From positions 1-12,759 of the forward strand of contig CANTGP010000041.1 of assembly GCA_947653315.1 (NCBI GenBank): a DNA stretch of 12,759 nucleotides. Reading direction: 5' to 3'. The position numbers and the translations under genes are program-made. Origin of the DNA: an uncultured Lachnospiraceae bacterium (GTDB lineage: Bacteria; Bacillota; Clostridia; Lachnospirales; Lachnospiraceae). The notes below the pieces were generated by a model. It saw nothing but the letters and a program-made list of their open reading frames with translations. It ran no database searches and was not told the origin of the DNA. Below are positions 5,068 through 11,490 of this stretch, in pieces (within the stretch, counting starts at the first letter, position 1; each line of letters begins with the position of its first letter).

Positions 5068-5103
5068 ATACCTCTTTTCCTTTTCCGCCGGTTGACCGGT
5101 TTC

Positions 5104-5219
5104 TTTTTTTGCTTGTTTTTGCTTGTTTTTGTCTGTTTTTGCTTGTTTTTGCTTGTTTTTGTCTGCTTTTACTTGTTTTTTGTTTGCTTTTTATATGGTT
5201 TTGGTTTTTGTCTGCTTTT
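5104..5219. repeat. helically phased T-tract (A-tract) array in the PHP gene leader
   Basis: Runs of four to seven T recur with a 10-base period: tracts of five T begin at 5106 (within a run from 5104), 5116, 5126, 5136, 5146 and 5156, then at 5167 (four T) and 5176 (six T). The units are GCTTGTTTTT (A) and GTCTGTTTTT (B) in the order A-A-B-A-A-B', so 5111-5140 and 5141-5170 form a 30-bp duplication with one mismatch. Less regular tracts continue to 5219. On the transcribed (minus) sense it reads as (CAAGCAAAAA)n. Phased A-tracts cause intrinsic DNA curvature. The alternatives are a tandem protein-binding array or an unstructured A-rich 5' UTR. Confidence 0.85.
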
Positions 5220-8084: not shown

Positions 8085-8492
8085 TCACCGGCAGGCTTCA
8101 TCGGTTTCCCGTATCAGCCGTTCAAACAGCAGACCGGTAAAAAGCCAGCAGGGAAGGTAGTCCAGCCGTATGATTTTCTTTATATTCCAGCGGGAATGCC
8201 CGTAGTCCCACGGACAGAGGTCGCGGCGGCTTAACAGCGTTCCGGTAATGTATTCACCGAGGAAAATCAGGGCGGCGTATACCGTTCCCCGTACCAGGAA
8301 GTGCTTTTTTCCCATCAGGCGGCATACGGGGGCAAGGAATGCCGCCATGCCGTATATGGGGAACATCCAAATGGAGGTGTTCCCTGTTAATTTGAATTCC
8401 CTGCGCCGGAAGGAATCCAACGCGGTAAACGTAATTTCAAGGCACCAGCCGAGGATGCCGCAGTGGATGAAGTTATGGATTGTTTTTTTCAT
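8085..8492 (-). CDS. short CmpB-type (PF06541) putative membrane protein
   Basis: A 135-residue membrane protein that shares the markers of the larger protein at 3288-4241: GWCLEI near the N-terminus, SIWMFPIYGMAAF, FLGEYITG and CPWDYGHSRWNIKKIIRLDYLPCW. It ends soon after the last hydrophobic segment and has no coiled-coil tail. About four hydrophobic stretches are visible (roughly 5-25, 40-60, 68-85 and 110-125). No good ribosome site precedes the ATG at 8492 (upstream reads AAAACTGAAAAC), so translation may be weak or the start misplaced. It is divergent from the ATPase/TOPRIM operon, and the palindrome at 8569-8582 lies between them. The transport function in the family name is unproven. 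Confidence 0.75.
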   Translation of the reverse strand: MKKTIHNFIHCGILGWCLEITFTALDSFRRREFKLTGNTSIWMFPIYGMAAFLAPVCRLMGKKHFLVRGTVYAALIFLGEYITGTLLSRRDLCPWDYGHSRWNIKKIIRLDYLPCWLFTGLLFERLIRETDEACR

Positions 8493-8556: not shown

Positions 8557-8584
8557 TTGACGGGGGTTTATAGTATACTATACG
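8557..8584 (+). promoter_or_regulatory. promoter of the ATPase/TOPRIM operon with a 14-bp palindromic operator
   Basis: TTGACG (8557-8562) and TATACG (8579-8584) are 16 bases apart. The perfect palindrome TATAGTATACTATA (8569-8582) fills most of the spacer and overlaps the -10, the classic place for a repressor or MerR-type activator site. Being symmetric it also offers a TATACT on the minus strand for the divergent gene, although no -35 was found there. An AT-rich palindrome can also arise from overlapping -10-like sequences. Confidence 0.5.
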
Positions 8585-8612: not shown

Positions 8613-9740
8613 ATGCCGAAACATATTCGTGCGGTGCATATTGATTCTTTCCGGGGAATCAGGAACCTGCATTTGGAGGAATTGGCACCGGTTAATATTA
8701 TAACCGGTGATAATAATAGCGGGAAAACCAGTGTTTTGGAAGTGATGGAAAGTTTGGATGATCCCGGCAGTTTCCGTATGTGGAGAAGTCTAATCCGTAA
8801 GGAAAGATTTGCCCCGGTGAATATGGGAATGACTCCGTTTGAAGGTCTGTCGGGTTTGTTCCCTGTGAATGGGGAGGAGATGCGGATAAGTTATAAGGTG
8901 GATTTTTCGGATGGTACGTCAAATGGGTTGGAAGTCGTTGGCAGTACAGTGGAAGAAAGTCTGCCGGTAAAGGAAATGGAAAAATTGTCAGTTATGGTTT
9001 TTCATGCGGGAGATGAAGAAAACGACGAGGAAAACGGTGAAAAAGAAGAAAACGTAATCGATGTGGAAAAATTATGGTTTTCGGTTTTTTTGGATGAGGA
9101 ATTGATTTTGGATAGCGGGTGTTATGATGTGCAAACGCGATTCCGTCACGAAAGAAATATCAATCATCATTTAGCGGATGTGAATTACATTTCCCCGGTA
9201 CGCCATGCGGAAGGGACTGTTTTTTTGAACAGTGTTTTGGACAACCCGGAATTGTATGAGCAGATGTTACAGGTCCTTAGGGAATTTGATCCGGGTATCA
9301 TTAGTATTAATGTGGATAATGCGAATGAAAAATACCGGCGTGGGAATATATACAAGATACTTTCCAGGGAACATAAGAGGGCACTGCCGCTAAACGTATA
9401 TGGCGATGGAATGAAAAAAGCCATTTTGCTGATGAGTGCAGTGATTCGGACCCAGGGGGGAATTTTATTGTTGGATGAATTTGAAACGGCAATTCATACG
9501 ACTGCAATGGAAAAAGTGTTCCGCTGGATACTGGAAACCTGTGTAAAGCTGGATGTGCAGTTGTTTCTTACTACGCACAGTGAAGAAGCCATCGATAAGA
9601 TTTTGAAATGCAGTCCCGTTTTACAGGATAAAATGAAAGTCTTTACGTTGTATAAAAAAGAAGACGGTACGGTAGCGCGGGTATTGGATGCCCGGAAAGC
9701 AATTGAGATTAAAGATGAAATGGGGATAGAATTACGGTAA
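8613..9740 (+). CDS. OLD-like AAA/ABC-class ATPase, first gene of an ATPase/TOPRIM pair
   Basis: A 375-residue ATPase of the OLD/AAA_15/AAA_21 type (SMC/RecF-like ABC ATPases). The N-terminus reads RAVHIDSFRGIRNLHLEEL, typical of the family. Walker A GDNNSGKTS is at 32-40, an acidic stretch at 133-147, the ABC signature region YGDGMKKAI at 263-271, Walker B ILLLDEFE at 284-291 (D288, E289), and the switch histidine in TTHS at H322. No nuclease or TOPRIM domain follows in the same chain. The ATG at 8613 is chosen because GAGGAGG (8597-8603) lies nine bases upstream; an in-frame GTG at 8595 sits inside that site. Its TAA overlaps the next ATG, so the two proteins are translationally coupled. 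Such ATPases act as sensors or regulators of a partner nuclease in anti-phage systems; here that role is inference. Composition looks more AT-rich than the flanks. Confidence 0.88.
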   Translation: MPKHIRAVHIDSFRGIRNLHLEELAPVNIITGDNNSGKTSVLEVMESLDDPGSFRMWRSLIRKERFAPVNMGMTPFEGLSGLFPVNGEEMRISYKVDFSDGTSNGLEVVGSTVEESLPVKEMEKLSVMVFHAGDEENDEENGEKEENVIDVEKLWFSVFLDEELILDSGCYDVQTRFRHERNINHHLADVNYISPVRHAEGTVFLNSVLDNPELYEQMLQVLREFDPGIISINVDNANEKYRRGNIYKILSREHKRALPLNVYGDGMKKAILLMSAVIRTQGGILLLDEFETAIHTTAMEKVFRWILETCVKLDVQLFLTTHSEEAIDKILKCSPVLQDKMKVFTLYKKEDGTVARVLDARKAIEIKDEMGIELR

Positions 9741-10366
9741 TGAACAGCGTATTATTATGTGAGGGATCAACGGATTTTGCCTTGCTGCAATATTTTATGC
9801 GGAAGGTATACGGTTGGGAGGATAAGGAGCGGGGACCGGGATTCCTGCGTCCGTCAAGGGTATTGGGGAAGGATGGGAACAAGCTGGTAATTGGGGGAAC
9901 GGGCGGCAGCAGTCAAATCCTTTCCAAGCTGGAAAAGATTGTGGATAATAATTTTCATTCAGCGTATGATACGGAATATTACCATAAAATAGCAATCGTG
10001 ACAGACCGGGATGAGGAAGGGACGGAAAACGGTTCAAAAGAAGAAAAAACGCTCGGAATATTGTTTTTAGTTATTCCGTTTGAAGAAACGGGGGCTTTGG
10101 AAACTTTTCTTTTAAAAGTGATTTCCAACCAAGACGAATATGACAAAAAAATTATTGAACAGGGAAACCGTTTTGTAGATCAGGTAGATGCGGAAAAACG
10201 GTATTTGAAATCCCGCAGATATATTACAAAGGCAAAATTTGACGTATATTTTTCTATCCGGACGCCGGCAGCTTTTTTTGTGGAACGGCAGAATATATTG
10301 AAAGATGTCGCATGGGACGGATATATGGAGATTCAGGATAGCTTCCGGGAATTGGAAAAGTTATAA
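9740..10366 (+). CDS. TOPRIM-fold protein (DUF3226/OLD-TOPRIM-like), partner of the ATPase
   Basis: A 208-residue protein. The start VLLCEGSTDFALLQYF with E8 is the first TOPRIM motif. KIAIVTDRDEEG (83-94) supplies the DxD motif at D89-R90-D91, followed by E92. PFEETGALETFLL (113-125) resembles the following segment of DUF3226 and OLD-type TOPRIM proteins, and IGGTGGSSQI (51-60) is a Gly-rich linker. TOPRIM domains in OLD proteins cut nucleic acid with bound metal. The C-terminal part (YLKSRRYITKAKFDVYFSIRTP) fits the closing helices of DUF3226-like proteins. Its ATG shares the A of the ATPase stop codon (TAATG). An ATPase plus a separate TOPRIM protein is the layout of the PARIS system (AriA/AriB), but AriB is DUF4435, and I could not tell whether this protein belongs to that family. 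Function as an anti-phage effector is inferred. Confidence 0.8.
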   Translation: MNSVLLCEGSTDFALLQYFMRKVYGWEDKERGPGFLRPSRVLGKDGNKLVIGGTGGSSQILSKLEKIVDNNFHSAYDTEYYHKIAIVTDRDEEGTENGSKEEKTLGILFLVIPFEETGALETFLLKVISNQDEYDKKIIEQGNRFVDQVDAEKRYLKSRRYITKAKFDVYFSIRTPAAFFVERQNILKDVAWDGYMEIQDSFRELEKL

Positions 10367-10374
10367 TTTTTATG

Positions 10375-10429
10375 CAGGAAAGATGCCGGTTACAAGTCAC
10401 CCAATGGCCTGTAACCGGCATCTTCCCTG
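10375..10429. terminator. large inverted repeat between convergent genes, probable bidirectional terminator
   Basis: AGATGCCGGTTACA (10381-10394) and TGTAACCGGCATCT (10410-10423) match perfectly around a 15-base loop, and with single bulges pairing extends to about 10375 and 10429. It fills most of the 80-base gap between the TOPRIM gene and the convergent DUF5050 gene. The tails are TCTTCCC and TCTTTCC rather than a clear U-run, so termination may be weak or need a factor. Confidence 0.5.
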
Positions 10430-10446
10430 TTCAATGACACAGTATC

Positions 10447-11490
10447 TTATTTTTTGCGGTTTTGGAGCGCAGCCTGCGCAGCGGCATCGAAATTAGTCAC
10501 ATATATGGAACCGGTGGTAGGCGTCATGTACATCGGCGTATCGGAATCGAAGGCGGTAAAATATACATAGGAGGAAGTGATGTTAATGTTTTTGTAAATC
10601 CCGTTTTTCACGGTTTCCACGTTGCTTCCGTCCGTCCGCATCCGTTTGAGAGCCGGATCGGTTTTGGAATTTGTCTGATAATAAATGTAATCCCCGTATA
10701 CGTTAAAGAAATCAATTCTTTCATTGGTCAGGACTTCCACCACATTATCCGTCGGGGAATAACGGCACAGGCGGTAGTCTTCGGGTACGTCCATGAAGTA
10801 GAAATAGCCGTTATGGTAAACCGGGTTATAAACATTTCCTTCCCATACGGTGGAAACCGAGTCGCTTGCGGTATTCAGGGCATAGAGGTAATGGTTATCC
10901 TGCGTGCCGTTGAAATAAATGATGCCGTCCTCACAGGAAGCGGGGTTGACAAGGTAATCCAGCACACGCTGGTCCTCCGACTTGTCAATTTTTATTTTGA
11001 ACAGTTCCGTGCCGTTGGTATTGTGGTTGTCAAAATTCTGGTAATACAGGTAGTTCCCGCAAAGCTGCAGGGTGATGGCGTTGCCGCGTTTGAGGCATTT
11101 GTTGTTCTTGCCGCTTAATTCGCAGCGGTAAATCCCGTAAGTACGCTGTGCAAATCCCAAACCCTGGCCGGAATCATGGCTGTCCAAAAAATAATACAGA
11201 TAGTGGTCGTCCGCGTTGATGGAAGTGACTTTTGAAGTGGAGAGCTTTTTCATGTCGGTTCCCTGCGGCGTCATGGAATAAAGACATCCGTTGTCATACA
11301 GGTTTGAAAAATAAACAACGCCGTTCCGTTCACAGAACAGTCCGTTGTTGTTCAGGTTCCCGGCCGTGTTGCCCGTTACGTAGCCTTCGTTCATTTTGAT
11401 TCGGCGGGTAAACATGACAATAAGGAATGCCGAAATAATGCCTATGATAAGTAGGGCGGAAAGAATAATCGTGCGTGTTTTTTTACTCAT
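10447..11490 (-). CDS. membrane-anchored DUF5050 protein, beta-propeller-like
   Basis: A 347-residue protein with a short basic start, one hydrophobic anchor at about 8-27 and an extracellular remainder. The body contains about seven repeats of an aromatic strand motif: VVYFSNLYDNGCLYSM, HYLYYFLDS, YLYYQNFD, IIYFNGTQDNHYLYAL, YFYFMDVPEDYRLCRY, YIYYQTNS and YVYFTAFDSDTPMYM. This is the pattern of DUF5050 domains, which look like bladed propellers and are common in surface proteins of clostridia; no biochemical function is known to me. The start has AAAGGA seven bases before the ATG. It has its own strong promoter and a leader with predicted structure. The upstream minus-strand gene is a cell-wall amidase, so a surface role is plausible. 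Confidence 0.8.
   Translation of the reverse strand: MSKKTRTIILSALLIIGIISAFLIVMFTRRIKMNEGYVTGNTAGNLNNNGLFCERNGVVYFSNLYDNGCLYSMTPQGTDMKKLSTSKVTSINADDHYLYYFLDSHDSGQGLGFAQRTYGIYRCELSGKNNKCLKRGNAITLQLCGNYLYYQNFDNHNTNGTELFKIKIDKSEDQRVLDYLVNPASCEDGIIYFNGTQDNHYLYALNTASDSVSTVWEGNVYNPVYHNGYFYFMDVPEDYRLCRYSPTDNVVEVLTNERIDFFNVYGDYIYYQTNSKTDPALKRMRTDGSNVETVKNGIYKNINITSSYVYFTAFDSDTPMYMTPTTGSIYVTNFDAAAQAALQNRKK

Follow-up and report, generated by a model that had tools for sequence, protein, structure and literature searches.

A probably disarmed copy of a PDC-M38-type split ATPase–TOPRIM gene pair at a variable chromosomal site in a Lachnospiraceae genome

The window analysed here, the 12,759 nucleotides of contig C41 (CANTGP010000041.1) of an uncultured Lachnospiraceae bacterium (GCA_947653315.1; 508 contigs, 3.24 Mb, 81% complete), carries on its forward strand a gene for an ATP-binding cassette (ABC)-class ATPase of 375 amino acids (aa; 8613–9740), followed by a gene for a DUF3226/TOPRIM-type effector of 208 aa (9740–10366). 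The pair matches PDC-M38, a candidate family already catalogued in PADLOC, PDC denoting a phage defence candidate (PMC11514479; articles with PMC numbers are cited here from excerpts). We consider it likely that the pair is a disarmed copy of a PDC-M38-type split ATPase–TOPRIM abortive-infection module, similar to PARIS and AbiL, in which the ATPase is intact and the effector dead or crippled. The disarming would lie in an internal deletion of the effector, which an earlier note made from the DNA sequence missed.

Results

The effector lacks a segment behind its metal-site motif

Comparison of the window effector with its nearest full-length relative, P0002 (241 aa), revealed that residues 97–129 of the relative are absent and that 206 of the 208 other residues are identical; because of this near-identity we take the deletion to be recent. 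The junction falls between residues 96 and 97 (10025–10030), just past the metal-site motif D89-x-D91 (10004–10012). The size of 33 residues was determined from the proteins and would equal 99 bp if the codons were lost whole. Among the best 120 of 494 effector homologues, to which all effector conservation counts refer, the segment is kept in 118, and these 118 measure 236–297 aa, the other two 208 and 215 aa. The 208-aa protein, P0001, has the same deletion and is identical to the window effector at 206 of 208 residues, so it is not the identical protein. The 215-aa protein, P0039, has a different deletion that overlaps the first, and all of its 215 aligned positions are identical to P0025. 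Consistently, a search of the genome with a family profile returned an effector match broken into profile positions 1–101 and 133–245 of 245.

Structure models place the missing segment next to the strand with the metal-site motif. In the model of P0002 (mean predicted local distance difference test score (pLDDT) 89.3), a helix at residues 95–109 follows the strand with the DxD motif and a further strand spans residues 123–129; by this model the window effector is missing most of that helix and one strand. The segment also contains a Trp residue present in 117 of the 120 homologues. The model of the window effector itself has a mean pLDDT of 79.0, with values falling to 46–57 at residues 91–120. 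Judged from the alignments and models, the deletion has probably abolished or strongly reduced effector activity, and this copy is probably inactive.

The effector is a likely TOPRIM protein of the DUF3226 family

The acidic residues expected of a TOPRIM metal site follow in the usual order, E then DxD, and are well conserved: E8 (codon at 9761–9763) in 118 of 120 homologues, D89 and D91 in all 120. Lys takes the place of E8 in the other two, another possible sign of disarmed effectors. The protein exceeds the cut-off for DUF3226 (PF11536; 36.1 bits against 27), as does the full-length relative (48.4 bits), and gave no match to DUF4435 at E ≤ 1; the earlier reading of a TOPRIM effector closer to DUF3226 than to DUF4435 was thus upheld. 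Against OLD-like_TOPRIM it scored 17.8 bits, below the cut-off of 23.2, which was reached by one of seven relatives scanned (L078, 23.7 bits). The TOPRIM reading is therefore likely, its support being the motifs and one relative in place of a strong direct profile hit. Among solved structures the best match is 2p62 (PH0156 of Pyrococcus horikoshii), a DUF3226-type protein that carries no TOPRIM label. Neither AriB nor OLD chains appeared by name among the 50 structural matches listed per model, a result that excludes nothing.

The ATPase is intact and the pair matches PDC-M38

All four motifs claimed for the ATPase could be located: Walker A GDNNSGKT (residues 32–39), signature YGDGMK (263–268), Walker B ILLLDE (284–289) and the switch His in TTH (320–322). 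The core positions (G, K and T of Walker A, the signature, D and E of Walker B, and the His) are kept in 118–120 of 120 listed homologues, and at columns conserved to at least 97% in these the window protein differs at none. By sequence the ATPase is intact, with no damage seen. It scores above the curated cut-offs for AAA_21 (76.9 bits) and AAA_15 (64.1 bits). Among PADLOC profiles, PDC-M38A matches residues 1–375 over profile positions 1–366 of 367 (E = 5.5e-115, 383 bits) and PDC-M38B matches the effector at 1.9e-84 in two stretches, the better one aligning residues 96–208 to positions 132–244 of 244; these two profiles outscore all others by far. Weaker ATPase matches were AbiLi (4.9e-36, 123 bits), AriA (5.7e-23), GajA (8.8e-11), Old (1.3e-9) and the retron Eco8 effector (2.1e-7, under that profile's cut-off). 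A profile built from 22 ATPases, run against PDB sequences at E ≤ 0.001, gave matches that include retron and Septu ATPases, OLD, AriA and RecF, all weak.

The reading frames, coordinates and TAATG junction reported for the pair were correct when the open reading frames (ORFs) were rechecked: the ATPase stop codon (TAA, 9738–9740) and the effector ATG (9740–9742) share one base. The description as a split, OLD-like ATPase with a TOPRIM-type effector is also supported; both genes match defence-candidate profiles, and the partner is DUF3226. The suggestion that the system might be new is not supported: PADLOC already lists PDC-M38, and toxin:antitoxin pairs of the same architecture have been published (PMC10440598). 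The assignment to PDC-M38 was made by profile matches; we found no published functional test of the family, and our literature search found no mention of DUF3226 or PDC-M38.

The pair is patchy and its copies in the genus are damaged

Traces of the effector occur in 4 of 16 genomes of the genus, the window's own (G000) included, and are absent from 12. The earlier note had named presence throughout the genus as evidence that would speak against a defence unit; the distribution found is the opposite. All four copies have a damaged effector. G005 retains effector residues 1–37 and 198–238 in two frames beside an open ATPase frame of 364 aa; G006 retains residues 193–241, with the ATPase split over two frames; and in G009 the effector lies in three pieces in three frames and the ATPase is a fragment. 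These three assemblies are mostly fragmented, and single frameshifts may be sequencing errors, missing stretches less likely so. G005 also has a second, more distant ATPase (30% identity, contig C108), beside which no effector was matched.

Across the family, the pair or a trace of it was detected in 14 of 397 genomes and absent from 383, with a near-full-length open effector frame in 11 of the 14 (all except G000, G164 and G287); a phylum sample gave 4 of 398, again counting the window's genome. Among 34 loci from genomes of named species, spanning Lachnospiraceae, Treponema and Selenomonadaceae among others, 29 show the effector as one uninterrupted reading frame immediately preceded by the ATPase gene. 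In the remaining five (L065, L081, L083, L084 and L085) the pair is broken or separated, although ATPase sequence is still found upstream in L081 and L083. In L065 (4356–10741; Schaedlerella arabinosiphila) the ATPase lies about 4.6 kb from a broken effector frame, which suggests an insertion. In two spirochaete loci (L078, 2134–5992; L079, 858–4704) the pair follows a gene for 1081–1082 aa and one for 202 aa, possibly as part of a larger operon; the long gene of L078 matches SNF2/PLD helicase profiles, and its L079 counterpart was scanned within the pooled tally described below. As to mobile carriage, 56 pattern-matched stretches from IMG/VR yielded none that was confirmed, and plasmid and phage records yielded no relative at the sensitivity of those searches.

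The pair occupies a site with varied cargo

The pair is located between an ABC_trans_CmpB family gene (8085–8492) and a DUF5050 gene (10447–11490), both on the reverse strand. Strong DUF5050 matches were present in 13 of the 16 genus genomes, and both flanks lay on one contig in 11 (G000, G001, G003, G004, G005, G009, G010, G012, G013, G014 and G015). In three of these (G003, G010 and G015) the site is empty, the flank matches ending about 60–140 bp apart; the other eight hold cargo, the pair itself only in G000. G004 has NsnABC there (L042, 3161–6164; PADLOC 2.7e-120, 2.1e-106 and 3.6e-139), NsnB itself being an AAA_15 ATPase; G009 has several genes, one of them for a type II methyltransferase (1e-122); G014 has VWA, PP2C and kinase genes; and the cargo of G001, G005, G012 and G013, judged by eye, consists of transport, folate-type or regulatory genes. 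In G011 (L101, 4905–10419), JetC2 and JetD2 of Wadjet adjoin DUF5050; no CmpB flank turned up in the stretch that was read. The cargo scan covered 10 proteins from G004, G009, G011 and G014, which were picked as promising, and therefore gives no proportions. Cargo at the site is varied and includes defence systems, and the site is not a pure defence island. The patchiness in the genus and the flanks without insert bear out the view that the pair was inserted among core-type genes.

A survey of homologue neighbourhoods for defence-island context, which the earlier note had suggested, did not show enrichment adjoining the pair. At 30 pair loci, the 111 near genes (positions one and two to either side, where present) match 51 PADLOC families at 1e-15 and the 93 far genes (fifth and sixth) match 49; enrichment was not demonstrable from these numbers, which count families and not proteins and take the far set from the same loci as a weak control. 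Families listed for the near genes include an SNF2/PLD helicase profile (two genes), PDC-M13A and PDC-M13B (two each), mad3 (four), a type III methyltransferase (one) and SoFic (one); those listed for the far genes include AbiEi, BrxHI, DpdJ, type IIG and AriA profiles. Ten chosen neighbours searched against PADLOC at 1e-10 gave one match, the SNF2/PLD-type helicase of L078.

Sequence elements around the pair

Upstream of the pair, a 14-bp perfect palindrome, TATAGTATACTATA (8569–8582), matches the sequence once, and 2 of 200 shuffles hold one at up to two mismatches. The operator-like palindrome noted before is therefore real, and it sits where the −10 element would be, as a possible operator overlapping that region. 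The promoter attributed to the unit was not recovered: scanning for consensus promoters gave no entry immediately before 8613, where TTGACG is present at 8557. A promoter-like match (10 of 12 positions) at 9703–9732 directly precedes the effector start and is one of 8, against 4.7 (s.d. 2.0) in shuffles. The hairpin reported at the end of the unit (10375–10429; arms 10375–10399 and 10405–10429), between the effector stop codon and the 3′ end of the DUF5050 gene, is present and strong, with a minimum free energy of −37.8 kcal/mol as RNA that was equalled in 0 of 200 shuffles; a downstream T-run is absent and the intrinsic terminator scan does not list it. A repeat element was considered and rejected, as the arm sequence was found at no other place in the source genome.

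The contrast in base composition stands at 42.1% G+C for the pair against 48.1% for the remaining window, and is weaker than described before (60-base lines inside the unit hold 17–32 G/C, mean 25.1). The setting among housekeeping genes was confirmed, the other matched genes of the window being core-type: CobW, YlmH-like, CmpB, PHP, carbamoyltransferase, nitroreductase and amidase. Apart from these features, the CobW-family GTPase gene contains five copies of a 33-bp tandem repeat (970–1153) encoding a His-rich, possibly metal-binding linker of the HHHDGEECHH type, and tandem repeats of period 10 and period 30 rich in TTTTTGCTTG lie at 5102–5203, between the PHP-domain gene and a PyrI-like ORF.

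Discussion

Proposed mechanism and alternative explanations

By analogy with PARIS and with TOPRIM:AAA pairs, the ATPase is predicted to act as sensor and as restrainer of its partner, and the DUF3226 protein to be the toxic nuclease. In PARIS, an AriA hexamer sequesters AriB until a phage trigger frees it as a two-metal tRNase (PMC12409363); TOPRIM toxins from Clostridium algidicarnis and from Streptococcus agalactiae are neutralized by separate AAA proteins in a study that also describes AbiLii as AbiL's toxic effector (PMC10440598). In a working module, the ABC ATPase would assemble and keep the nuclease inactive, would sense a phage product and would then release or activate its partner; the freed nuclease would cleave nucleic acid, tRNA or other RNA being likelier than DNA, and growth would stop. 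Tight pairing and gene overlap fit such a restrainer–toxin model. In the window's copy, a recent in-frame deletion, of 33 codons as judged from the proteins, would have taken most of the helix behind the DxD motif and one strand. If the toxin is costly, one would understand that every one of the four genus copies has a damaged effector and that two (G000 and G005) nevertheless keep an open ATPase frame.

Several observations weigh against a disarmed defence module, and they lend substance to other explanations. Conservation within the missing segment averages 0.43, against 0.71 elsewhere in the effector, and the model of the deleted protein still aligns to 2p62; moreover, the reading frame, E8 and the DxD motif are retained, and the allele of P0039 overlaps the same segment. 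The shortened effector might thus still be active, the segment being a dispensable part of the fold. We regard this as unlikely, although it carries some weight, given that the segment is absent from only 2 of 120 homologues and includes both the conserved Trp and the greater part of the helix that follows the metal-site strand, and that the three further copies in the genus are clearly disrupted. Selection could also have favoured the two in-frame deletions behind DxD as a way of disarming the module: with the frame and the C-terminal half of the effector preserved, the ATPase would retain a partner or stay regulated, and the module would persist in a form that is tolerated, switchable or a decoy. 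We rate this a long shot. That the deletion is an assembly artefact is suggested by the fragmented, incomplete genome and is very improbable, as the non-identical P0001 shares it.

The further objection concerns the role of the pair: the one AAA pair reported in the excerpt as phage-screened in E. coli, which has a non-TOPRIM toxin, gave no hits (PMC10440598). A toxin–antitoxin or addiction pair not directed at phage would agree with this, with the toxin:antitoxin behaviour of TOPRIM:AAA pairs in neutralization assays (PMC10440598) and with damaged effectors beside open ATPase frames in G000 and G005, as expected of a costly toxin. We think it quite unlikely, considering that no plasmid or phage record was found carrying the pair at the sensitivity of those searches, that relatives carry defence cargo at this site and that the authors of the TOPRIM:AAA work themselves propose Abi systems (PMC10440598). 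That the ATPase serves in housekeeping repair, as a RecF/SMC-like enzyme aided by an accessory nuclease, is scarcely credible: the RecF and SMC_N matches at the P-loop are weak (35.7 bits for RecF, whose cut-off is 172), the pair is missing from most genomes of the genus and family, and the ATPase is tightly coupled to a TOPRIM-type partner. The best match to a housekeeping ATPase that the earlier note had named as counter-evidence was not what we found, PDC-M38A being best.

The disarmed PDC-M38-type module remains the reading that we prefer. It connects DUF3226, a family with a fold like that of a structurally solved archaeal protein, with the split ATPase–TOPRIM defence group, and it cautions that a profile match to a defence system need not equal a working system. 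The unit is already catalogued; what the present analysis adds to the earlier note is that the effector carries a deletion, that effectors are damaged repeatedly within the genus and that the pair occupies a cargo site. The natural loss-of-segment allele is available for comparison with intact relatives, and the locus points to a chromosomal site in the genus that accepts varied cargo, defence systems among it.

Comparison with known systems

PARIS, which a review calls a possible fourth, split OLD class (PMC10568477), likewise encodes an ABC ATPase and a TOPRIM-type nuclease in adjacent genes. Its published detection rule asks for AAA_15 of at least 32 or AAA_21 of at least 27 bits together with a DUF4435 partner of at least 27 bits (PMC9122126); the window ATPase passes (64.1 and 76.9 bits), whereas the partner is DUF3226 with DUF4435 unmatched, so membership in PARIS was rejected. 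AbiL is also bicistronic, and the AbiLi profile matches the ATPase, though PDC-M38A scores 383 bits against its 123; the effector differs, reaching 14.0 bits for RloB against a cut-off of 31.5 and 7.7e-4 for AbiLii over 63 residues only, and for want of the RloB feature AbiL was rejected as well. OLD, Gabija GajA and the retron Eco8 effector share the combination of ABC ATPase and TOPRIM group, in a single chain there and in two ORFs with a one-base overlap here. In the TOPRIM_OLD:AAA toxin–antitoxin pairs (D44 and D60 with D29; PMC10440598) the AAA protein neutralizes a separate TOPRIM toxin, a likeness by architecture, and the fold of the effector is matched by archaeal PH0156 (PDB 2p62), described as hypothetical. 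The closest counterpart is PDC-M38, both of whose profiles are matched, that of the ATPase along its full length; the B protein here differs in lacking 33 residues, hence its match in two stretches.
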